A DNA stretch of 64,000 bases, taken from contig JAIEMA010000022.1 of the NCBI GenBank assembly GCA_019752535.1, forward strand, positions 1-64,000. Reading direction: 5' to 3'. Shown piece by piece: positions 47,859 through 59,294 of the stretch. The notes below the pieces were generated by a model that saw only the letters and a program-made list of their open reading frames with translations, was not told where the DNA came from and ran no database searches. Within the stretch, counting starts at the first letter, position 1; the number at the start of each line of letters is the position of its first letter. A program made the position numbers and the translations under genes. The DNA comes from Bacteriovoracaceae bacterium. GTDB lineage: Bacteria; Bdellovibrionota; Bacteriovoracia; Bacteriovoracales; Bacteriovoracaceae.

Positions 47859-48551
47859 ATGAAGAAATTGCTTGGTTTGTTTTTAGGTTTTCTGTTTGCG
47901 TTGTCGGCTTGGGCCAGTGAAAAGTCGGTCTACGATTTCTCTTGGCTTGATAAAGACAAAGAAATCTATGTTTTACAAAACCGAAAATACAGAAAAGAAG
48001 GCAAGCTCTATGTGGGCGTGGGAGGAATTAAAACTCTCTCGGGAGCCTTCGTTGATAGTTATGGAGCGAATGCGAGAGTAGGTTATTTCTTTAAAGAAGA
48101 TTGGGGTGTTGAATTTCTTTATGGGAAATACACTGGCAATGAAAATGATACGGCCAAAGGTGTTAAGGAGCAGGGAACTGTTCCGTTTTATCGCAAGTTC
48201 GACACTGTCATGGGGGGAATCCTTTGGTGGTCTCCATTCTACGCTAAGATCAACACCTTCAATCAGATCTTTTATTTTGATTGGATGTTTGGTTTAGGGG
48301 CAACTCAAATTAAAACGATGGATAATCGAAATAAATTTCTTCCGGGTGCACCGAGTACATTAACAAGTGAAAATACAACTGGTGGCTTGTGGTCGACGGC
48401 TCTTCGCTTTCATATCAACCAAGCTTGGAGCTTAAGACTTGATTTCACAGGCATGCATTATACAGCTGAACGCAAAACGTCTAATACCGCTGGCAAGAGT
48501 CAGATGTTTTCAAACTATGACTTCGGCATGGGGCTGATGTTTGCTTTCTAA
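47859..48551 (+). CDS. outer-membrane beta-barrel protein of Glt/Nfs-like cluster
   Basis: A protein of 230 residues with a signal peptide (MKKLLGLFLGFLFALSAWA). After a short linker (WLDKDKEIYVLQNRKYRKEG) it forms amphipathic strands (KLYVGVGGIKTLSGAF; ANARVGYFFKEDWGVEFLYG; FGMGLMFAF) ending in Phe. This layout, with the VLQNR-type linker, resembles the TIGR04565 barrels found with myxobacterial gliding and spore-coat clusters. It opens the cluster, starts 70 bases after the addA-like gene, and is followed by the TPR genes. It is probably the outer-membrane anchor of the complex. Confidence 0.78.
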   Translation: MKKLLGLFLGFLFALSAWASEKSVYDFSWLDKDKEIYVLQNRKYRKEGKLYVGVGGIKTLSGAFVDSYGANARVGYFFKEDWGVEFLYGKYTGNENDTAKGVKEQGTVPFYRKFDTVMGGILWWSPFYAKINTFNQIFYFDWMFGLGATQIKTMDNRNKFLPGAPSTLTSENTTGGLWSTALRFHINQAWSLRLDFTGMHYTAERKTSNTAGKSQMFSNYDFGMGLMFAF

Positions 48552-48567
48552 GTCAGGGGAGAACAGG

Positions 48568-49980
48568 ATGTTCAACCGTTTAATTATTTTTATTTTTCTT
48601 TTATCGCTTTCAATCACTTCAGCGATGGCCAGCTTGAGTTCGGCTCAAAAAACCTGGGAGACGACTTCGGGGGCAAGTTCTTGGAGAAAAATTGTCATCC
48701 AACTTGTCGATGCAGGCTATCCCTATTCTGCAGTGCCATTTATGAAAGAGTATTTGGTTCAAAACCGTGCTTCACTTGATGAAGACCTAGATGAAGCCTT
48801 TGATAAGCTTATTGCTTATACCGGTGTTCGTCCGTTTGAAACTCTACCCGATAATATTCTTGGCCAATCTCGCTCTTCCGTTGTGCGCTACATCCTCGCT
48901 AAAAAACATTTCAGGAAAGGTCGCTGGTCTGAGTCACTCACTGAATTGCAAAGAGTCAATGCCAACCATCCTGTTTATCCATTTGCTGTTCACTTAAAAG
49001 CAGCAATTCATAGTATTCAGGGAAAAATAGCAGAATCAGAATCTGACTATAAGGACTGTGTTTCGTTTTCTCGTTCACGCTATAACGACGAATCCAATCC
49101 CGTTAAGCTTCGCCAATTATTGATCAATCGTGACTCTTGTATTGCCGGGATAGCCCGCGCTGCATTCACGCGTGGTGATTATAAAAAAGCGGACTTTCTC
49201 TATCTTGATATTGAGAAGTCTTCTTATATTTGGCCTGAGATCCTTTTTGAGGAAGCTTGGTCGAGTTACTACCTTCAAAATTTCAATAGGACATTAGGGA
49301 AGTTGGTTTCTTACAAAGCCCCAGTCTTTGATTTTATTTTTAATCCTGAAATAGATGTTCTAAAGGCTTTGGCCTATATGCGTCTTTGTCTCTATGAAGA
49401 TGTAAATTCGATTGTAGAGAACTTCTATTCTCAATGGATGGAGCCTTCAAAAAATCTAAGGGGCTTCATTGTTTCACATGGAAGAGATTACAACTATTAC
49501 TTCCGTCTCGTGACGACGTTTGAGCAAGATAAAGTCGCTCGTGACTTCTTAATGCAACAGATGCTTCTGAATATATCTAAAGATCCAGCTTGGCAGGAAA
49601 TGAAGCAAGCCTATATTGATTCAATCTTAGAGTTTAATAAATTAAAGAGTTCTGGAAACTCACGATTTAATGTTGAGCTCATGAAAAACGTGAAAGAAGT
49701 TGTGGGTGAATACCAAGACTTGATGGGCAGTTATGCGCGGGCCCAGTTCAACGAAAAATATAATGCCCTTTCAAAAACTTTTCAGGACATGAGTTTTATT
49801 AAGCTTGAGGTCTTGGCCCGTAAGAAACAGTCACTTTACCAAGATGTGGGTGAAGGTAAAAAACGTGGCGATATTAAATATATAGATAGAAATGATAAGC
49901 AATACTTCTGGGATTTTAACGGTGAGTTTTGGGCCGATGAACTCGGAGATTATGTATTTGCCCTGGGGTCAGAATGCTAA
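48568..49980 (+). CDS. periplasmic TPR-like protein (GltC-like)
   Basis: A protein of 470 residues with a signal peptide (MFNRLIIFIFLLSLSITSAMA). Residues about 130-320 contain helical repeat pairs (YILAKKHFRKGRWSESLTEL; FAVHLKAAIHSIQGKIAESE; GIARAAFTRGDYKKADFLYL; ILFEEAWSSYYLQNFNRTLG) of TPR or Sel1-like type. ATG 48568 has GGGGAG about 7 bases before it. Position and content fit the GltC-like periplasmic protein of Glt-type clusters, an assignment made by layout. It overlaps the next TPR gene by 7 bases. Confidence 0.75.
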   Translation: MFNRLIIFIFLLSLSITSAMASLSSAQKTWETTSGASSWRKIVIQLVDAGYPYSAVPFMKEYLVQNRASLDEDLDEAFDKLIAYTGVRPFETLPDNILGQSRSSVVRYILAKKHFRKGRWSESLTELQRVNANHPVYPFAVHLKAAIHSIQGKIAESESDYKDCVSFSRSRYNDESNPVKLRQLLINRDSCIAGIARAAFTRGDYKKADFLYLDIEKSSYIWPEILFEEAWSSYYLQNFNRTLGKLVSYKAPVFDFIFNPEIDVLKALAYMRLCLYEDVNSIVENFYSQWMEPSKNLRGFIVSHGRDYNYYFRLVTTFEQDKVARDFLMQQMLLNISKDPAWQEMKQAYIDSILEFNKLKSSGNSRFNVELMKNVKEVVGEYQDLMGSYARAQFNEKYNALSKTFQDMSFIKLEVLARKKQSLYQDVGEGKKRGDIKYIDRNDKQYFWDFNGEFWADELGDYVFALGSEC

Positions 49981-52856
49981 GTAAAACTCTCAGTCTCCTT
50001 TTTATTATATCCTCTCTTGCTGCATTCGCTGCTGGAAGTGGCGATGACAAGAGGAGAGATCGCATTCTGGGCATTATCGATGAAGAACTTCAGGAAGTGA
50101 CTCGCCTATCAAAGCAGAGAAACAATAGTGATGCAGAGCTTTTATTGAGGGCCGCCGAGCTTCATCTTGAGAAGGCCCGCCTTCAAAGAGAATCTGAAAA
50201 TGAAAAGTTTCTTGCGATTCCTGCAGAAAAAAGGCGTGAAGAGGACCAAGATAAGTTTTATGCTCAATCTAATAGAAGCTTTAATAATGCGAATCAATAC
50301 GCTCTAGCTGTAACTAAAAAATTTCCGAATTATAAAGACATTGCCGATGTCTATTATATCCTGGCCTTTAATGCACGAGAGCTCAAACAATATGATCAAT
50401 CGCAAAAATATCTCAAGGTCGCAAGCACTAAGGCGCGCAGTGGTTCCGGCACATACTACAAGTCACAGCTAGCCCTTGCTGATTCCTATTACAACAAGCA
50501 GAAGTATTCAAAAGCAATCCCTCTCTATGAATCTTCACTCTCAAAACTAGATGAGACGTGGTGGACAAAAGATGCTTTCAATTTGGCTTGGTGTTATTAC
50601 AGAGAGAGAAAGTACGACAAAGCCATCAACTTAATGAAGGATATTCATAAGAAGTCAGCAAATCAGAAATATATTAATATGCAGTATTTCGTTGAGCGCG
50701 ATCTTGGTATCTTCTATGTAGATGCCAAACGAAATGATGAAGCGATCGCGTGGTATAAATCTCAGGGAATTGATTTCTCTGGGCATTTAATAAAAATAGC
50801 AAAAGTTCTTGTCCCTCAAGGCAAATTCACTCAAGCAGAGCAATTAGTAAATGAAGCCGCACGGATGCAAAAAAATCCACAACAGAGAGCTGAAATTCTT
50901 CTTTTACAGATGGATCTCTTTGACAAGTATGAGAAAGTTGGACCGCATCTCAAAGCTTCTAAAGAGCTAGTCACAATGGCCGAAGCCAAGAGTCTGGATG
51001 AAACACAGCTCAAGGTATTGGATTACCAAGTCGCTAAGAAAGCAGCTGAACTTCAAAAAGCAGCGAGCTCAGAAACCTATAAAAATGTGAAGAAGACAAG
51101 AGAGAAAAGATCCAAGCAAGCGGAGTCATACTTTGATTTGTTGGCACGTCTTAGACCTGGAAAAGTAGCAGAGCCTCTCTTCTTTAAGGGTGAAACAGCT
51201 TTTGCGGCTCAAAATTACGAATTAGCGCTCGCATCTTATCAATCCGCCTATGGTGCTTCTCAAAATGAAGGGAATAAAAAAATAGCCACTCAATCGATGG
51301 AAGGGATGTTGGCCACTCTCGGGCAACCCACTCTAAATGTAGGAGTCGCCGAGAAATACTATATCCCCGTCTATACAGCTTATCTCAAACAAGACTCTAA
51401 ATCAGATCGTTCTAAAGTTATTCGCCAGAAACTCTACAAGGTTTATATTGATAAAAAAGATCTCGTAAATGCTGAAGCTGTACTTAAGGATTATGCCCAG
51501 GTCTATCCCGATGATTTTAAAACTCAGGAATCAATGCTTGCGGGTCTGATGGAAGATGCTCGAAAGAAAAAAGATTTTGAAAGAGTGAAGTCGTTTGTGG
51601 GTCAAATTAATGAAGGAACATATAAGGTCTCTAAAAAGTATGGAGATGCCCTTCGCCAATTAATGACGAAAATTCAAATCGAAGATGCTCAGACTGCGCT
51701 GGATAAAGGTGATAAATTAGGTGCGCTCAAAAATTACATTCGTGTCTACAATAGTGCTGATAGTACTCCTAGGGCCAAATCGAATGCAGCTTACAACCTT
51801 GCAGCACTTTATTATGAAGCTGGCGACTTAAATGAGAGTTATCAATGGTCAGTCGTTGCTTTGAAAGACATGGAAAATAAAGAAGCCAAGCAATTTGCGG
51901 AATCATTTTTAACGATTTCAACCAATCTTTTTTTGCGCCAAAAATTTGCCCAATCAGCTGACTTGAGTCTTAGAATTGTGGCCAAACTTTGTGGTGAAGG
52001 TCTTAATGCAAAAAATACTTCTTTTAAAAATGCTGCTTTCCTATGGCTTGCAGAAGGCGAAGTTTCTAAAGCAGAAGAAGTGCTGGCCCTTGGTCCTCGT
52101 TGCGGCATTGATGAAGTGACGCAAAATGAAGTCAGGATCGAGCTCTCTAAAGAGTATTCACGATTAAAAAGATGGGATAGTTTAGAGAGATCTATTGATC
52201 CAGTCGCCAAGAGTAAAACTCAGGCCCCACAGGCGATTCCATTTCTTGAAAGTCTTCGCCAGTCATATCTCTCGATAGGTGATTCTGGTAAGGCTCAGTC
52301 TATTGGTAACGAAATTGTTTCGATCTATAAAACTGCTAAATCTACAAATCTTGATATACCTGTTGAGGGTCTCGATATCATTGCATTCGGGCTGATGCCA
52401 CGTCTTGAGCATAAATGTAATTTGCTGTCGAAAATGAAATTAGAATTTCCAGAACAAAAATTCAACCAAATGGTTAAACAGAAACTTGCTGGACTTGATT
52501 CCTTAACTGCTGAAGTCAATGATATTCAATCGACAGGTTCAGGTAAGGGAATAGTAAGAGCTTATAAACTGCTTATTAATGCCTATGAAGATTTTGCCGT
52601 AGAACTCAAAGATTTCACTCCGTCTGAAAAACCACCTGAATATATTGAAAGTTTTAAAAAGGCGATGGCCAGTGTTTGGACTCCGATCCTCGGTACAGCT
52701 CAAAAGAGAAGACAGGAAGTGGTGGGCTTAATAGAAAAGAACGTTATTCTTTCAGAAGATAATTTTGAAATGCTTGCCCCTCAAGGCATGAGACCAGCCC
52801 CTTATTATCATTCTTCTGAGACGATGGTGCTCATGGACCGTGGAGGTGTGCAATGA
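49974..52856 (+). CDS. large periplasmic TPR protein (GltD/AgmU or NfsD-like)
   Basis: A protein of 960 residues with a signal peptide (MLSKTLSLLFIISSLAAFAA). At least eight TPR-like helix pairs are spread over residues 100-720, for example YKDIADVYYILAFNARELK, YKSQLALADSYYNKQKYSKA, AFNLAWCYYRERKYDKAINL and AKSNAAYNLAALYYEAGDLN. Large periplasmic TPR proteins of this kind (GltD/AgmU, NfsD) are core parts of the Myxococcus envelope machinery, where they bridge inner and outer membrane. The start overlaps the previous gene, and the stop overlaps the next start by 4 bases (ATGA). Confidence 0.8.
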   Translation: MLSKTLSLLFIISSLAAFAAGSGDDKRRDRILGIIDEELQEVTRLSKQRNNSDAELLLRAAELHLEKARLQRESENEKFLAIPAEKRREEDQDKFYAQSNRSFNNANQYALAVTKKFPNYKDIADVYYILAFNARELKQYDQSQKYLKVASTKARSGSGTYYKSQLALADSYYNKQKYSKAIPLYESSLSKLDETWWTKDAFNLAWCYYRERKYDKAINLMKDIHKKSANQKYINMQYFVERDLGIFYVDAKRNDEAIAWYKSQGIDFSGHLIKIAKVLVPQGKFTQAEQLVNEAARMQKNPQQRAEILLLQMDLFDKYEKVGPHLKASKELVTMAEAKSLDETQLKVLDYQVAKKAAELQKAASSETYKNVKKTREKRSKQAESYFDLLARLRPGKVAEPLFFKGETAFAAQNYELALASYQSAYGASQNEGNKKIATQSMEGMLATLGQPTLNVGVAEKYYIPVYTAYLKQDSKSDRSKVIRQKLYKVYIDKKDLVNAEAVLKDYAQVYPDDFKTQESMLAGLMEDARKKKDFERVKSFVGQINEGTYKVSKKYGDALRQLMTKIQIEDAQTALDKGDKLGALKNYIRVYNSADSTPRAKSNAAYNLAALYYEAGDLNESYQWSVVALKDMENKEAKQFAESFLTISTNLFLRQKFAQSADLSLRIVAKLCGEGLNAKNTSFKNAAFLWLAEGEVSKAEEVLALGPRCGIDEVTQNEVRIELSKEYSRLKRWDSLERSIDPVAKSKTQAPQAIPFLESLRQSYLSIGDSGKAQSIGNEIVSIYKTAKSTNLDIPVEGLDIIAFGLMPRLEHKCNLLSKMKLEFPEQKFNQMVKQKLAGLDSLTAEVNDIQSTGSGKGIVRAYKLLINAYEDFAVELKDFTPSEKPPEYIESFKKAMASVWTPILGTAQKRRQEVVGLIEKNVILSEDNFEMLAPQGMRPAPYYHSSETMVLMDRGGVQ

Positions 52857-53752
52857 AGAGCAGCCTAATCATGTTAATGGTGTTTATTTCTGCTTGTTCT
52901 TCTACTTCGGAGAAGAAAAAAAACATAGATCCGGCTCAATCGGTTTCAGTCAAAACAGCTGACTTCAAAAAAAACAAACCGCTCTCCTACAATGCGAGTG
53001 AGGATTATTATCAAGCTCCTAAGGGTGCCACTCAATCGAATGCACTCTATCAAGAATCAGCGGGCAAATCGAATAATACGGAATTGCAACAAATCACCAA
53101 TGGAAAGGATCAATTGGCATCAATGATGGTCCTCTGTTATAAAAAATCTTTTGCTGAAGCTTTCTCAATCGCAGATCAACTATTTGCCTCTCATGCAAAA
53201 ATTCCCACTTACTGGAATCAAGTGGCGACCTGTCACCTTCTTCAAGGCAATGAGAGGAAAGCGCTCTTGTTCTACAATAAAGCACTGGAAGTGACACCAA
53301 AGTACGTTCCGGCACTTAATAATATTGGTGTGATTTATAATAAAAATTCCCAAGATCAAAAAGCTCAAGTCGCTCTTCAGCGTGCTTTCGAGCAAGGAAA
53401 GTTTGCAAAAACGCCGAGATTTAATCTTGCTAATCTTTTGCTTAATTATGGACTTGGTGAAAAAGCTCTCCGCTTATTTAAAGGTCTCTCAGATGAATCC
53501 CCAGGAGATGCTGAAGTAAGGGCGGGGCTTGCTACAAGTTATGTCTTTCTTTCGCGTTGGGATGAGGCTTGGGAGCAATTTAATGCCATTCCTGATTCTA
53601 AAAGAAAAGAATCGAGAATTGGTTTAAATATGGCGCTAACGGCGCATCAGTTAGGAAAAAGTGAATTAGCGAAAGATATTCTTGGAAGAACCAATGTTGA
53701 GTCTTCTGACAAATCCTATGCGGCAAGTTTGCGCCGAATAATTGGAGAATGA
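52853..53752 (+). CDS. TPR lipoprotein (GltE/AglT or NfsE-like)
   Basis: A protein of 299 residues with lipobox FISAC (Cys15), followed by Ser, which favours outer-membrane sorting. After a disordered linker, TPR repeats occupy residues about 85-290 (IPTYWNQVATCHLLQGNERK; VPALNNIGVIYNKNSQDQKA; TPRFNLANLLLNYGLGEKAL; RIGLNMALTAHQLGKSELAK). A TPR lipoprotein at this place corresponds to GltE/AglT or NfsE. It is coupled to the large TPR gene by a 4-base overlap and is followed after one base by the small periplasmic gene. Confidence 0.8.
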   Translation: MKSSLIMLMVFISACSSTSEKKKNIDPAQSVSVKTADFKKNKPLSYNASEDYYQAPKGATQSNALYQESAGKSNNTELQQITNGKDQLASMMVLCYKKSFAEAFSIADQLFASHAKIPTYWNQVATCHLLQGNERKALLFYNKALEVTPKYVPALNNIGVIYNKNSQDQKAQVALQRAFEQGKFAKTPRFNLANLLLNYGLGEKALRLFKGLSDESPGDAEVRAGLATSYVFLSRWDEAWEQFNAIPDSKRKESRIGLNMALTAHQLGKSELAKDILGRTNVESSDKSYAASLRRIIGE

Positions 53753-53753
53753 G

Positions 53754-54005
53754 ATGAAATACTTTTTGTTTTTATCATTCATGTTTTCATTCAACTCTTT
53801 TGCGGCAAAGCCAGCGAAGAAAGTTGTTTATGAATATAAAAAGTATGAAAAGTTTGATTTTGAAGAGATTGGCGTAGAGGGACAATCTGGCGCACCGGGA
53901 GATCTCTCGGTTGCTCCAACGCCCAAGAAAGACTATGCGAATCGATTACCAGAAAGAAAAGATTTTTTAAATCAGATGCGTAAAGCTGCAAGCGGTATTC
54001 GCTAA
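53754..54005 (+). CDS. small periplasmic protein of Glt/Agl-like cluster
   Basis: A protein of 83 residues with a signal peptide (MKYFLFLSFMFSFNSFA). The mature part is about 66 residues with a charged stretch YEYKKYEKFDFEEIGVEGQ, then APGDLSVAPTP and a basic helix RKDFLNQMRKAASGIR. The FDFE..x..EG pattern recalls short proteins found with AglRQS/ExbD-type motors (possibly GltF or CglF-like), but I am not certain. ATG 53754 has GGAG 6 bases upstream. Position between the TPR lipoprotein and the FHA protein indicates a part of the same complex. Confidence 0.72.
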   Translation: MKYFLFLSFMFSFNSFAAKPAKKVVYEYKKYEKFDFEEIGVEGQSGAPGDLSVAPTPKKDYANRLPERKDFLNQMRKAASGIR

Positions 54006-54019
54006 GAAAAGGATATATT

Positions 54020-56050
54020 GTGGAAACACAAAAGCAGAAGAGCCAATTACTTTATAGAATCAAATCCAAGGATCAACGAATCAAAGTTGATGGAGATGTG
54101 GTTTCTAAAGGAAGACTTTTAATTGGAAGATCAGAATCCTGTGATGTGATTATAGACAGTGATTCGATCTCAGCTATTCATGCAGTCCTTGAAGTGAATG
54201 GGGATAGCGCCAAAATTTATGACATGAATTCGACCAATGGCACCTGGATTGGCGGAAAGAAAATTGTGGTGGGTGATTTAGGCCCCGGAGATACGTTCTC
54301 TCTTGCAGATATAGATCTCTCCTTTATTGCATATCGCCCCGAGGAGAATTTGCCACCAGTTCTCGATTCTCTTGAGCCACAATTTGGTTCAGCATCTACT
54401 AAATCAGCACCTGAATTGCCGGCCTTGCCAGAGACGAAGAAGCTACCTGATGCGCCTGAAGTCGCAGCGACTGATATGCCTTATGTCGTCTTTCCCTTGG
54501 CCCGTGATCCTAAGGCTGAGCAAAGTGAGTATATCTTTGAGGATTCTGCTGAAATTTATCCTATTTTTAAATACGACACGACTCGACAAGCGGTTGAGAT
54601 CATCATTCTCTTCCAGGATCGAGTTTACAGTGTCGACTATTTACCTGATACAGACGGAACTTACTTCATGTCTGGATTCAAGCCTAATGTCACAGATCTC
54701 GAGTTCCCCTATTTAGGTAAAACAGAGAGAGTCCCGTTTGTTGAAATAGTTGGCGGAAAAGTTTCCGTTCACAAAATGCCTGGCTATGAGGTTCTTCATT
54801 TAAGTGAGCATCAGTCCAAAGCTGTGAATCAGGGAATTGGTACTGTGGAGCTAAGAGCTCAAGACATCATGAGGCAGCAGAAGGGTGATCTTCAGATTTT
54901 CGTCAGACAAGTGGATGCTCCTCCAAAAATTGCAACGGCCCCACTGTTTAGGCGTGATCCTGTTTTAAGACGCCTGATGATGCTCTTTTTAATGTTTACG
55001 TTCGCATTCAGTATTGGAATTCAATTTATTCAAAGAAACGAAGAAGAAAAAGAAGAAGAGAAGAAAGAGTTGGCACCCGAGCGAGTGGCCACCATTTTAT
55101 ATAAGCAAAAACTAGTCGTTTCGAAAGAGAAGGCTGTCGTTAAAACAGAAGAAGCTCCTAAAAAAATACAGACGGCACCTCCAACTCCAAAGCCAATTGA
55201 GAAACCTGAGCCACAAAAGCCTCAAGAGAAGCCTGTTGTAAAAAATAGCACTCAAGACAACAAAAAAACTCAGGGTAGTAAGACGGCTACAGAGACCAGA
55301 CCCGTAAGAAAAGGCAATCCAAGTTCAAAGGTGACTGCAGAAGCTCGTTCGGGCGGTCCAGCGTCTGGCCCTCCTAAAGCTCAAATCACTGTGGGAAGTA
55401 GTAAGTCTGCCTTTCCTGGAATAAAGCAGTCGGGCCCAGTAGAAGTCTACAAGAGTGCCGATTTCTCAAGCAGTGTGAACACTCTTTTAGCAAAAGGTGG
55501 AACTCTCTCAAATGTTCAGGGGGTTAAATCAGCAGCTGGATCTGGTGGAAGTAATCCATTTGGTGAAGGTGTCGCCACTGGAGTTGGCTCAGGCTCTGGT
55601 GTTCAAACCGCAACAGTGAATAACAGCATGGGATCTCTTACGGGTGTGGCCAATGGTGTGATTGGTTCAACATCAAAGGGTGCTGAAGGTTTATCAAATA
55701 AAACGACAGTCTTCACGGCCGGTATTCCAGCTGAGACTGTGGTTCTCGGTTCTATGGATCCTGATATCATCCGCAGAATTTTAATGGATAATCTTCCAAA
55801 GTTTAGATTTTGTTATCAGTCTGAACTCGAGCGTGTGGGATCAGAGGTTCAAGGTGTGATTAAACTGAATTTTGTAATCGGAGCTTCTGGTCACGTTTCA
55901 CAAGCAGGAGTGGATAACAGCAGTAATCTTCCTGGCCAAGTGAAAAGATGTGTCGTGGATGTTCTTAGAGGGATTCAATTCCCAGAACCATTAGGCGGCG
56001 GAACTGTCGAAGTGAAGCAGCCAATGAATTTCTATCCAAAGAGAATCTAG
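54020..56050 (+). CDS. FHA-TM-AgmX/PglI_C protein (GltG-like)
   Basis: A protein of 676 residues. An N-terminal cytoplasmic FHA domain (about 28-105; GRSES, SAIHAVLEV, NSTNGTWIGG) should bind phosphothreonine. One membrane segment (about 318-338) follows. Next comes a Lys/Pro/Glu-rich periplasmic linker (345-430), a Gly/Ser-rich region, and a C-terminal AgmX/PglI_C (TonB-like) domain (about 575-676; LPKFRFCYQSELER, VQGVIKLNFVIGASGHVSQA). This is the layout of GltG/NfsG, which links the motor to periplasmic parts. GTG 54020 follows AAGGA. It ends at a terminator shared with the converging motor genes. Confidence 0.88.
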   Translation: METQKQKSQLLYRIKSKDQRIKVDGDVVSKGRLLIGRSESCDVIIDSDSISAIHAVLEVNGDSAKIYDMNSTNGTWIGGKKIVVGDLGPGDTFSLADIDLSFIAYRPEENLPPVLDSLEPQFGSASTKSAPELPALPETKKLPDAPEVAATDMPYVVFPLARDPKAEQSEYIFEDSAEIYPIFKYDTTRQAVEIIILFQDRVYSVDYLPDTDGTYFMSGFKPNVTDLEFPYLGKTERVPFVEIVGGKVSVHKMPGYEVLHLSEHQSKAVNQGIGTVELRAQDIMRQQKGDLQIFVRQVDAPPKIATAPLFRRDPVLRRLMMLFLMFTFAFSIGIQFIQRNEEEKEEEKKELAPERVATILYKQKLVVSKEKAVVKTEEAPKKIQTAPPTPKPIEKPEPQKPQEKPVVKNSTQDNKKTQGSKTATETRPVRKGNPSSKVTAEARSGGPASGPPKAQITVGSSKSAFPGIKQSGPVEVYKSADFSSSVNTLLAKGGTLSNVQGVKSAAGSGGSNPFGEGVATGVGSGSGVQTATVNNSMGSLTGVANGVIGSTSKGAEGLSNKTTVFTAGIPAETVVLGSMDPDIIRRILMDNLPKFRFCYQSELERVGSEVQGVIKLNFVIGASGHVSQAGVDNSSNLPGQVKRCVVDVLRGIQFPEPLGGGTVEVKQPMNFYPKRI

Positions 56051-56146
56051 TTCATAATGGGCACACATAAAGGTGTGCCTATTTCTTTCTTTTGATTGTG
56101 TGTGATGAGATTAAGATTGATTTGAAAGCGAGTAAATCTAAAAATC

Positions 56147-56170
56147 AAAGGGGCTCAGTGGCCCCTTTTT
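56147..56170. terminator. intrinsic terminator between converging Glt-like and AglRQS-like genes
   Basis: AAAGGGGC (56147-56154) pairs with GCCCCTTT (56161-56168) over a 6-base loop and runs into a T-stretch on the + strand. The A-stretch on the left makes weaker use on the - strand possible. It overlaps the stop of the minus-strand ExbD gene. Confidence 0.88.
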
Positions 56171-56685
56171 TATTGCTCTAAATTTCTGACGACAAATTTA
56201 TATTCTTTAAATCCGGCTTCAGCACAGGTAAACATAATCTTTCTGATATAGGAGTATTTTAAACTCTTATCTAGGACAAGATTAGCAATTCCGGAGAATT
56301 TCACAGCATCGGGAGAGATCTTTTCAGTCTGCTTGATAGATTCCTTGATGCTTACGAGTTCATTAAAGAGACTTACGATTCTTCTACCATCCATATCGTA
56401 CATCTTGTCTGGCATCGTTTCACTGTTAAGTACTTCTTTGTTCTCGACCCAGATTTTATCCGCTGAAACTTGAATACTCACCCCGTTAGTATTTACGCTC
56501 TGTGAGTGGGAGTCCGGTAGAGAGATCCCGGCAGGAACGTGAATTCGTACACCGGTTGCGTCGAAATTGTTGATCAAAAATGCCAGAAGGATCGTGAGGA
56601 TATCTAGAAGTGATGTAACATCGACTTCAAGCACACTCGGCTTTCTTCTTCTGCTCATGAATCTAGCGCTTCCACGACGAGACAT
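56170..56685 (-). CDS. ExbD/TolR-like protein (AglS-like)
   Basis: A protein of 171 residues. A basic cytoplasmic tail (MSRRGSARFMSRRRKPS) leads to one membrane helix with the proton-path Asp (VDVTSLLDILTILLAFLINN; Asp28), and then a periplasmic domain. ExbD/TolR proteins use the proton gradient with a TolQ-type partner. It is the third gene of the motor set, 2 bases after the other ExbD-like gene. The order TolQ-like, ExbD, ExbD equals aglR, aglQ, aglS. Confidence 0.88.
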   Translation of the reverse strand: MSRRGSARFMSRRRKPSVLEVDVTSLLDILTILLAFLINNFDATGVRIHVPAGISLPDSHSQSVNTNGVSIQVSADKIWVENKEVLNSETMPDKMYDMDGRRIVSLFNELVSIKESIKQTEKISPDAVKFSGIANLVLDKSLKYSYIRKIMFTCAEAGFKEYKFVVRNLEQ

Positions 56686-56687
56686 AA

Positions 56688-57221
56688 TTAACTCATTAAG
56701 TTAGAGAAAACGATTTTTGAAAACAAAGTCGGAATCTTTTCATCAAGACCTTCTTTGGTTTTTCTAAAAATAGCGTCATCAGTTTTTTCTAATAAACGAA
56801 CTGTATCCATCACACGGATTAGTTCCTCATATCCAATTTCCCATTCAGGAGAGAATATAATGCTCTCTTCTGAGGATTTTGTTTTCTTGAATTCAACCAG
56901 CTTGGCATGCAAGTTGGCTAAATCGTATTTTCCATCACCCAAACGTTGGAATTTCGCCACAAGTTGTGGAGTTGTCCCTCTCATCAATTCAATCTCGTTC
57001 TCTTTGATAATTAACTGAAGGGCCAATGGATTCTTATCTTGAGGAGGTGGATCGTTTTCTGAAACGATCGGCACATCCGATCCGATTTCCATGATCTTGA
57101 TAAAGTTAGCCGACATAAGAAGAAAGAAAATAAAGATGAATACCGCATCCATAATGGGCGTTAAATTCAGCTTTTGCTCGGGCTTCCTGCGACGGCGCGC
57201 TGTGGGTACACGAATCATCAA
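56688..57221 (-). CDS. ExbD/TolR-like protein (AglQ-like)
   Basis: A protein of 177 residues. A basic tail (RVPTARRRRKPEQK) precedes a membrane helix with the conserved Asp (LNLTPIMDAVFIFIFFLLM; Asp25). The periplasmic domain is about 125 residues long. It lies 6 bases after the TolQ-like gene and 2 before the second ExbD. Two different ExbD-like partners for one TolQ-like channel is the arrangement of the AglRQS motor that powers gliding in Myxococcus. Confidence 0.88.
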   Translation of the reverse strand: MMIRVPTARRRRKPEQKLNLTPIMDAVFIFIFFLLMSANFIKIMEIGSDVPIVSENDPPPQDKNPLALQLIIKENEIELMRGTTPQLVAKFQRLGDGKYDLANLHAKLVEFKKTKSSEESIIFSPEWEIGYEELIRVMDTVRLLEKTDDAIFRKTKEGLDEKIPTLFSKIVFSNLMS

Positions 57222-57227
57222 TGATCC

Positions 57228-57860
57228 TTAGTCAGCTTTTTTTGTTCCGAGTAAGTCAGAGAGCTTCACGGAAAACTCATCAATTTCACCCACGATCTTT
57301 TCTGCTTTGGCAGCTAAGAAAGCGTGGAAAACCATAATGACAATCGCAGAAGCAAGACCTAAGGCAGTTGTATACATTGCAACAGCTAGACCAGATGAAA
57401 GAATTTCTGCTTTCTGAGTGGGATCAGCAGCTGCTAAACCTGCGAATGATTGAATCAAACCTTGAATTGTTCCAAGAAGTCCAAAGAGGGTAGAAAGGTT
57501 TGCGCAAAGAGAAAGATAAGGAAGTCGTTGCTCAAGCTTTGGAATCACTTCAAGTGCAGTGGCATCGATTGCATTTTGAATTTGTTCAGGTGATTGATTG
57601 GCCCTCTTGAGACCACTTTTTAATACTCTCGGAAGAGCTCCATTCGATCCTGAGCAAACTCTAATGGCGCCCTGTATATCGTTAGAAAGGATGTAGCGTT
57701 GCAATTCATTCATGAACGATGGGCCATCTATGTCCATCGAGCTGAGTTTTTTTGCACGTTCCACAAGTACTGCGCACGCAATGGCGAATACTCCGAGAAT
57801 GACGTACATAAAAAATCCGCCACCTACAATAAAATCAATGCCGCTTTGAATGAATGACAT
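57228..57860 (-). CDS. MotA/TolQ/ExbB-like proton channel (AglR-like)
   Basis: A protein of 210 residues with three membrane segments: GGFFMYVILGVFAIACAVLV near the N-terminus, and two in the second half (YLSLCANLSTLFGLLGTIQG and SSGLAVAMYTTALGLASAIV) holding the TolQ motifs LFGLLGTIQGL and AVAMYTTALGL. With the two ExbD-like proteins it should form a proton-driven motor. ATG 57860 follows AAGGGG at 8 bases. It is the first gene of the three, with its own promoter probably in the 124-base gap after the hairpin at 57945. Confidence 0.9.
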   Translation of the reverse strand: MSFIQSGIDFIVGGGFFMYVILGVFAIACAVLVERAKKLSSMDIDGPSFMNELQRYILSNDIQGAIRVCSGSNGALPRVLKSGLKRANQSPEQIQNAIDATALEVIPKLEQRLPYLSLCANLSTLFGLLGTIQGLIQSFAGLAAADPTQKAEILSSGLAVAMYTTALGLASAIVIMVFHAFLAAKAEKIVGEIDEFSVKLSDLLGTKKAD

Positions 57861-57944
57861 ATTTCGATCCCCTTCCATGGAAAGATAAAATGCTTAGTAT
57901 CTTATGATTATTATAGCGGCTCCTGCTCAGGAACCAAGAGATAA

Positions 57945-57984: not shown

Positions 57985-58410
57985 TTAGAAATTACAGCGA
58001 ACGAGTTTTGCCCCGACAGGAAATTCCGCAGACGTGATGCGACCTTTTTCATTGATCATTAAAGTGGACCTACTATTGTCCTCGGACACATATTTGAAAT
58101 CATCGACTTGAGTGCCCTCGGCAGTTTTGTGTAGGTTAGTAAATCTCACTGAATTACTCTGATCAATTTTGACCGTTCTATCACTATTTGATCCAGAAAC
58201 CTCGATTTTAGTCCAAACACGATAAGCCGGATTACCAAAACTATCCTCAGTCATAGTGTTTTTCACTTCATCAACTTTAACTGAACATTTTGCCTCAATT
58301 CCATTGATGATAATTTTTGTTTTCGCTGTTCCCTTAAGCATCATGGTGCCTTGGATTTCATTGGCAAAACAAAGCACGGGAGTAAAAGCTAAGATTAATA
58401 AATACTTCAT
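57985..58410 (-). CDS. small exported protein of unknown function
   Basis: A protein of 141 residues with a signal peptide (MKYLLILAFTPVLCFA). The mature chain is beta-rich, with a single short turn-rich domain (GTAKTKIIINGIEAKCSVKV; YRVWTKIEVSGSN) and two cysteines (AKCSVK, LVRCNF) that may form one disulfide. No family was recognised. It starts 11 bases after the protein-glutaminase-like gene on the same strand and may be its partner, for example an inhibitor or binding protein. That is only an inference from position. Confidence 0.75.
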   Translation of the reverse strand: MKYLLILAFTPVLCFANEIQGTMMLKGTAKTKIIINGIEAKCSVKVDEVKNTMTEDSFGNPAYRVWTKIEVSGSNSDRTVKIDQSNSVRFTNLHKTAEGTQVDDFKYVSEDNSRSTLMINEKGRITSAEFPVGAKLVRCNF

Positions 58411-58421
58411 AAAAATCCTTA

Positions 58422-59294
58422 TCAGTGATTAATTGTTCTGCTGCCAGTATCAAGGGCTTCAAAATTATCTTCCCAGCCTTTAAATGCACGGCGAGCATCT
58501 TGAAGTTCCATAAGATCCCAACCATTTTTAATTTCGCCCTTCTCATCTCTGTTGCGGATATCAAGTGGTCTAAAAATCCACATTGGAGTTTTCATGAGGA
58601 AGCAAAGGCGATTCCAAGGTTGTGATTCGTATTGATTATAGTTTTCAATAATTGGACAAGTGATTCCCTCTTTCATGAATTTCTTTTTCCATTCAGCCAC
58701 AGTTACTGGCTTCTTTAAGAAGGTTTTATCCATCACGTATTCAACTCCACCAGCAGTGACCACTGGAGCGACATGGAACCACCAATCAAACTCTTCAAGT
58801 TGAATGTATCTCTTAGAGTAAAAGATAAAGACTTTTTGGCCCACGATTGCTTCACGTGACCACATTTCAAACGCCCACATGTGCGCACGCTTAAAACATT
58901 GTGAGCGAGACTTATCCCCATCATTTTGAAGGGCGAAGAGGCGAGTAACTTCTGCTTCAGATCCAACATCAGTGATCTCAGTGCTACGGTTGGGATCAGA
59001 TTCAAAGAAATTGATTGCTTGTGAAGAGCGAGTGACTTCAACACCAGTCACCACTAAATCCTTACCCTCTTCTGTCCACTTAAGAACCACACTTTGACCC
59101 TTTAGTGACTCGAGATATTTTTTCATCTCATCACTTTGGGCCGTCTTATAAACTCTTCCATCACTCGATGAAAGAATCAAAAGACTCTTTGTTTTAAGAG
59201 AATCTACAACCGTAGCAATTGTAGTAATCGTTTCACCTGCCAGGGCTTGAAAAGCACAAAGCATGAAAACCATAGCGATTAGACCGCGTAACAT
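58422..59294 (-). CDS. exported protein-glutaminase-like deamidase
   Basis: A protein of 290 residues with a signal peptide (MLRGLIAMVFMLCAFQALA). After a beta-rich pro-like region (20-115), the C-terminal domain has the layout of protein-glutamine glutaminases: Cys133 (SQCFKRAHMWAF), His174 (WWFHVAPVV) and Asp189 (YVMDKTFLKKPVTVAEW), a Cys-His-Asp triad. Known members of this family deamidate glutamine in proteins. Here the N-terminal region would be the pro-part, and the substrate is unknown. The gene is followed after 11 bases by a small exported protein. Confidence 0.7.
   Translation of the reverse strand: MLRGLIAMVFMLCAFQALAGETITTIATVVDSLKTKSLLILSSSDGRVYKTAQSDEMKKYLESLKGQSVVLKWTEEGKDLVVTGVEVTRSSQAINFFESDPNRSTEITDVGSEAEVTRLFALQNDGDKSRSQCFKRAHMWAFEMWSREAIVGQKVFIFYSKRYIQLEEFDWWFHVAPVVTAGGVEYVMDKTFLKKPVTVAEWKKKFMKEGITCPIIENYNQYESQPWNRLCFLMKTPMWIFRPLDIRNRDEKGEIKNGWDLMELQDARRAFKGWEDNFEALDTGSRTINH

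Follow-up and report, generated by a model that had tools for sequence, protein, structure and literature searches.

A core complex of seven linked genes, gltC, gltD, gltE, and gltG together with aglR, aglQ, and aglS, was defined by Luciano 2011 (PMC3169522), who already described the Agl–Glt class in Bdellovibrio and put the Bd0828-0838 cluster nearest to AglRQS. Four such clusters, Bd0411-0421, Bd0828-0838, Bd1473-1483, and Bd2368-2377, are carried by Bdellovibrio bacteriovorus HD100 (PMC2797640, PMC12546842). AglR binds GltG in a two-hybrid assay, and the Agl motor is driven by the proton motive force (PMF) (PMC3169522, PMC3858216). Here we describe a related cluster in a 64,000-nucleotide stretch of a Bacteriovoracaceae bacterium (GCA_019752535.1, contig JAIEMA010000022.1, positions 1 to 64,000; hereafter the window), which belongs to a 3.49-Mb genome that is 97.5% complete (contig C14 in our numbering). 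The original prediction for this stretch had been a Glt/Agl (Nfs)-like envelope machine with its motor on the opposite strand, and to judge from its genes the cluster very probably specifies a complete PMF-driven trans-envelope machine of the Agl–Glt type.

For comparison, we call the Bd0828 cluster type A, Bd0411 and Bd2368 type B, Bd1473-1483 type C, and the window with its Bacteriovoracia relatives type D. Related loci were collected by scanning a single genome for each species, which gave 80 loci, all from Bdellovibrionota-type records and many from metagenome-assembled genomes (MAGs); the nearest relatives of the window are Bacteriovoracaceae MAGs. In the genome that we take to be HD100 (G073), the motor loci were located at the positions expected from the Bd numbers of the published four.

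Results

Two Convergent Operons with the Full Agl–Glt Core

The cluster spans 47859-57878 and consists of a barrel-GltC-GltD-GltE-GltF-GltG operon on the plus strand that converges on an AglR-AglQ-AglS motor operon on the minus strand (Table 1), neighboring genes abutting or overlapping inside each operon. All genes named in the original prediction (a barrel, two TPR proteins, a TPR lipoprotein, a small protein, and a protein with FHA, transmembrane, and AgmX/PglI_C parts, facing aglR-aglQ-aglS) are present and intact, and the seven genes of the published core (C, D, E, and G with R, Q, and S) are all found, together with GltF and one barrel. The gltC, gltD, gltE, and gltG homologues are thus linked with the three motor genes, GltD and GltE being recognized through orthologue hidden Markov models (HMMs) and position, without a Myxococcus model.

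Comparison with protein family models gave significant matches to Glt families for GltC (E 3.7e-34) and GltG (E 2.4e-36, beside an FHA match at E 6.8e-15 and an AgmX/PglI tail at E 1.8e-17), and the GltC model (NF033756) had no match in 14 control genomes. The ExbD and MotA_ExbB matches of the motor proteins exceed their cut-offs. The window GltD has no NCBIfam GltD match; an HMM built from its orthologues picks up GltD of HD100 Bd0828-0838 (E 4.6e-40). The equivalent GltE model matches the GltE position of the same HD100 cluster (E 2.3e-16), and the match of the GltF-like protein, which is kept in complete relatives, to its HD100 equivalent is weak (E 1.8e-4). The 120-base gap between the operons holds two hairpins and folds better than all 200 shuffles (z -3.7). 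Given the convergent operons and the terminator-like hairpins between them, the two gene sets would be transcribed separately, each ending toward the other.

In all, the window genome encodes three Agl–Glt systems: the window cluster (D1), a second type D system (D2) on contig C61, and a type B system whose genes are divided between C58 and C59. D2 is a complete sister system of the order barrel-C-F-R-Q-S-D-E-G, and its AglR is 54% identical to that of the window. The placement of the motor on the opposite strand, as predicted, is conserved: the relative orientation of motor and GltG was scorable in 57 of the 80 relatives, those with GltG on the retrieved piece, and was opposite in 51 and the same in 6. 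The latter are five D1 loci (L060, L074, L076, L081, and L085) and L088, a paralogous second system. The D1 neighborhood has the order polA-rdd-trx-gmhA-aglRQS meeting gltG-F-E-D-C-barrel-addA, and L089 and L093, two loci that the motor tree places outside the Bacteriovoracaceae set, are also convergent. The two channel Thr residues of AglR are present in all 74 orthologues, the AglQ Asp in 72 and the AglS Asp in 73 of 74. On this comparative evidence, type D is a branch of its own that is kept throughout the Bacteriovoracaceae and several related families.

Two observations stand apart from this pattern. At one locus, reading frames of 1293 and 1198 aa (L073:16144 and L073:17027) match GltE and GltC; frame errors or fusion with the GltD gene may account for them. 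One genome of the same family (G193, genus g29; 1.6 Mb, 91% complete) lacks AglR relatives at 1e-25 and GltC relatives at 1e-10, a possible loss of the D machines.

Proposed Mechanism and Likely Use

The GltG tail was modeled with a pLDDT of 81.5, and its closest solved folds are the TonB C-terminal domain and TolA domain III, at a modest best Z of 7.1; TonB, its homologues, or TolA made up most of the 21 best matches. No clear solved structural relative was found for the GltC homologue, and no AglRQS structure was found among PDB sequences. Plasmid sequences searched with two GltG proteins yielded no relevant match. AglR, AglQ, and AglS make up a TolQR-like proton channel of the inner membrane, and the window proteins, in which the channel residues are present, would do the same. 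Proton flow would move the membrane helix of GltG, whose linker and TonB-like tail would carry the force over the periplasm to GltC, GltD, GltE, GltF, and the barrel. The outer-membrane complex would then be dragged or tensioned, so that the outer membrane may be moved or strained at contacts.

By analogy with B. bacteriovorus, the machine most likely does contact-dependent work at surfaces, be it slow gliding or an action on prey or surfaces. This use is favored because the closest B. bacteriovorus motors, those of Bd1473-1483, are induced on surfaces: bd1480 shows such induction (PMC9140294), and a biofilm-predation screen hit Bd1473-1483 genes (PMC2797640). Of the other clusters, one (Bd0411-0421) increases early in the bdelloplast and another (Bd2368-2377) at exit (PMC12546842). 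We propose only tentatively, from the same analogy, that the window machine drives surface movement itself.

Taken as a whole, the locus is, with good confidence, best explained as a machine of the Agl–Glt/Nfs kind that is encoded in two convergent units, belongs to the separate branch D, and performs contact-dependent surface work. Several points weigh against this explanation. Any role in Bacteriovoracaceae is predicted from genes and analogy, and Luciano 2011 held the core set by itself insufficient for motility (PMC3169522). GltJ was not seen above the cut-off in 59 genomes (the window's own and 58 relatives, all of the same phylum), general models give weak homology for GltD, GltE, and GltF, and our trees cover Bdellovibrionota sequences only. 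Finally, one genus, g6, lives without AglRQS, and the motor is therefore not indispensable (see below).

The machine might instead move surface polymers or outer-membrane cargo round the cell, in Nfs-like coat or cyst work, and not the cell itself. Nfs polymer transport in spores uses the same motor (PMC3858216), the four HD100 clusters serve different predation stages (PMC12546842, PMC2797640), and the window genome has three such systems; yet no polysaccharide genes were seen beside the cluster, either in the window or among the conserved neighbors, and we consider this use unlikely. For Bacteriovorax and Halobacteriovorax, the literature searched yielded no paper on gliding or on Agl/Glt genes.

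A Branch Apart from the Described Types

In a tree of the concatenated R, Q, and S sequences, types D and C group together, apart from A and B (100/100). The GltC and GltG trees place type D as a clade of its own with no firm sister. On the Myxococcus models, GltC and GltG of the window score 118 and 125 bits and those of HD100 Bd0828-0838 188 and 234, where the equivalog cut-offs are 450 and 650. All 291 genomes sampled from the phylum have GltG-model matches, none of them above the equivalog cut-off, and these are model matches, not whole machines. In the window genome, each cluster has one TIGR04565 barrel, three in total, and not a pair of GltA and GltB.

Like the core complex of Luciano 2011 (PMC3169522), the window has all seven genes linked and with the same domains; it differs in its opposite-strand motor, in the added GltF and one barrel, and in forming its own clade. 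The M. xanthus Glt/Nfs machinery with AglRQS is recognizable in the significant matches to its GltC and GltG family models, but the window is far under the equivalog cut-offs, shows no GltJ above the cut-off, and has a single barrel. Type C, whose HD100 aglQ is Bd1480, has the closest motor and, among the HD100 clusters, the most similar barrel: in HD100 the window barrel best matches the barrels next to GltC, at 75 bits in Bd1473-1483 and 62 bits in Bd0828-0838. In type C, however, the gene order is another one, GltG has no FHA domain, a 1246-aa TPR protein replaces GltD and GltE, and half of the AglQ proteins are without the proton-site Asp.

We noted two further features of the known types. 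Among the type C motors examined (L108, L116, L137, L143, L129, and L139), the AglQ Asp is kept in just three of six, and one ExbD subunit of this type may thus be proton-dead. At about 3.49 Mb, HD100 has a fifth barrel-GltC-GltF set (L158) with no motor gene adjoining.

The window shares with Bd0828-0838 the gene order barrel-C-D-E-F-G and an FHA-bearing GltG, a domain common to types A and D and absent from the HD100 proteins of the Bd0411, Bd1473, and Bd2368 types, and mutants of Bd0838 do not attach to prey (PMC6561027). The window cluster could from this be taken for the direct counterpart of both the Myxococcus gliding machine and Bd0828-0838, driving gliding as such. Against that, the type A cluster has two barrels and a colinear motor, the motor tree separates it from the window at full support, and the Myxococcus-model scores of the window are lower, with GltJ again below the cut-off; a direct counterpart is on this evidence improbable. 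Constraining type D and type A motors to one clade was rejected by the approximately unbiased (AU) test (p-AU 2.6e-85).

The view that the cluster represents the core of the Myxococcus gliding and spore-coat machinery therefore stands for the class, given the Glt-family matches and the seven-gene core, and is not supported for closeness or equivalence to the Myxococcus machine, with scores of 118 against 450 and 125 against 650 and type D grouping with type C. The suggestion that the reduced set approaches the ancestral form was not supported: in sequence comparisons the window set forms a branch specific to its lineage and has a duplicate of its own in this genome, and the barrel count cannot decide the ancestral state because other types also have one barrel.

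The Motor Is Distinct from TolQ and ExbB

We compared the motor with TolQ and ExbB-like proteins of the same genomes. All 49 Agl-type motors, that of the window included, formed one clade apart from TolQ/ExbB (99/97), the window motor being made of one TolQ-like and two ExbD-like subunits. The motor trees, like those of the exchanged motors below, hold long branches, and their main splits were stable across three trees. Because the Glt matches are significant and the motor clade stands apart from TolQ/ExbB, neither finding named as contrary to the original prediction, a lack of Glt/Nfs matches or a motor grouping with plain TolQR, was made. The dedicated TolQ of the window genome lies elsewhere (C7:92863) and has 221 bits on TIGR02796, equal to the cut-off, compared with 58 bits for the window AglR; the genome also has an ExbBD pair and MotA-type genes. 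That a Tol-Pal or TonB system was misread as Agl–Glt, as matches to the TolQ, ExbD, and TonB_C families might suggest, is highly improbable given the separate motor clade, the dedicated TolQ, the two ExbD genes, the GltC and GltG matches, and the lack of TolB or Pal beside the cluster, provided that the trees were not misled by the choice of outgroup.

Probable Natural Motor Exchange in One Genus

Genus g6, from the same family, was sampled with nine genomes (loci L156, L157, L159-L166, L168-L170, and L172-L183); in every one of them AglR relatives are absent or weak, and GltC relatives occur twice in each. At the polA locus, all nine genomes keep barrel-C-D-E-F, GltG and AglRQS are gone, and a gene for a 150-aa membrane protein follows GltF. 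At the D2 locus, again in nine of nine, a TolQ-like gene and one ExbD gene stand where AglRQS would be, followed in all eight readable genomes by a GltG of 344-372 aa. A further, unlinked TolQ-ExbD-GltG cassette is present in 7/9 genomes. As read from gene content, a barrel-C-D-E-F set without AglRQS alongside a second machine driven by TolQ and ExbD is new in this analysis.

The swapped motors are placed on the side of TolQ/ExbB (100/98), together with a Halobacteriovorax-like TolQ homologue (100/99) from a genome, G008, that is presumably Halobacteriovorax; grouping them with Agl was rejected (p-AU 0.0008). The tails of the swapped D2 GltG proteins group with other D2 tails (98/100; 95/92 in another tree), and the tail therefore stayed with its machine. 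For the tails of the orphan cassettes, which are of type D, the D1 and D2 placements both have an AU p of about 0.4; the cassette probably serves the polA-locus machine.

In g6, just ~25-50 residues precede the membrane helix of GltG, which leaves no room for an FHA domain. The helix, taken as the most hydrophobic 19-residue stretch with no trained predictor, carries Ser-x3-His in all 15 of these g6 proteins and in none of 72 AglRQS-linked GltG proteins. TonB and TolA bind their motors via this Ser and His, the SHLS motif (PMC12204202). The window GltG resembles these force transducers in its tail fold, and the g6 proteins do so also in the Ser-x3-His helix and the TolQ and ExbD motor; in contrast, the window GltG has an FHA domain and no Ser-x3-His, and its motor is encoded by three genes. 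The exchange of the motor together with the helix supports GltG as a motor-specific force transducer, and the simplest reading of these sequences is that its helix would go with the motor, and its tail with the machine.

Together, these patterns make it likely that the module changes engines in nature. Genus g6 would have replaced AglRQS by TolQ and ExbD while rebuilding GltG, with the tail kept, the FHA domain lost, and a helix of the TonB/TolA type gained; at its other machine, of the D1 type, GltG and AglRQS have disappeared from the locus, and the unlinked cassette probably serves it. Agl–Glt would then be a motor-exchangeable force transducer with GltG as its clutch.

Features of the Locus

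The features of the cluster are given in Table 1. The signal peptide of the barrel is MKKLLGLFLGFLFALSAWASE. The GltC-like gene probably starts at the ATG at 48568, and AglR starts at either 57878 or 57860, the latter being the second in-frame ATG, which the original prediction took as the end of the cluster and where the alignments of many relatives begin. The two ExbD genes are provisionally named AglQ and AglS by gene order only, in line with the naming published for HD100, where Bd1480 (aglQ) is the middle gene and Bd0838 (aglS) the last. Directly upstream of aglR and on the same strand (57985-59294, minus), two genes encode secreted proteins, one of 141 aa with no assigned family and one of 290 aa with a Gln_deamidase_2 (protein glutaminase) domain; the pair is kept at the same place in close relatives and absent from more distant ones.

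Table 1. Genes and hairpins of the Agl–Glt cluster in the window
Feature	Coordinates	Strand	Evidence
Outer-membrane beta-barrel, GltA/GltB-like	47859..48551	+	TIGR04565 OMP_myx_plus, 96 bits (cut-off 60); sole barrel of the cluster
GltC-like periplasmic TPR protein, 479 aa	48541..49980	+	NF033756 gliding_GltC, E 3.7e-34, 118 bits (cut-off 450)
GltD-like large periplasmic TPR protein, 960 aa	49974..52856	+	TPR families
GltE-like TPR lipoprotein, 299 aa	52853..53752	+	TPR families; lipobox ...FISAC; NF033758 GltE just 23 bits
GltF-like small secreted protein, 83 aa	53754..54005	+	Position between E and G; signal peptide
GltG-like transducer	54020..56050	+	FHA domain; one transmembrane helix, ~residues 316-340; linker; AgmX/PglI tail
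Terminator-like hairpin of the glt operon	56056..56083	+	11-pair stem and T-run
Second terminator-like hairpin, bidirectional	56147..56168		Between the convergent operons
AglS-like ExbD/TolR protein	56170..56685	-	PF02472, E 8.7e-13; proton-site Asp28
AglQ-like ExbD/TolR protein	56688..57221	-	PF02472, E 2e-15; proton-site Asp25
AglR-like TolQ-family protein	57228..57878	-	PF01618 (MotA_ExbB), E 3.3e-27; channel Thr137 and Thr171

Discussion

In a 2026 review of gliding, the motor of predatory Bdellovibrionota and its force path are listed as unidentified (PMC13104615). The present analysis sorts the Agl–Glt-like clusters of the phylum into types and shows which type the Bacteriovoracaceae carry. 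The natural exchange of motors makes the transfer of force from AglRQS to Glt testable, as motor specificity should follow the swapped GltG helix.

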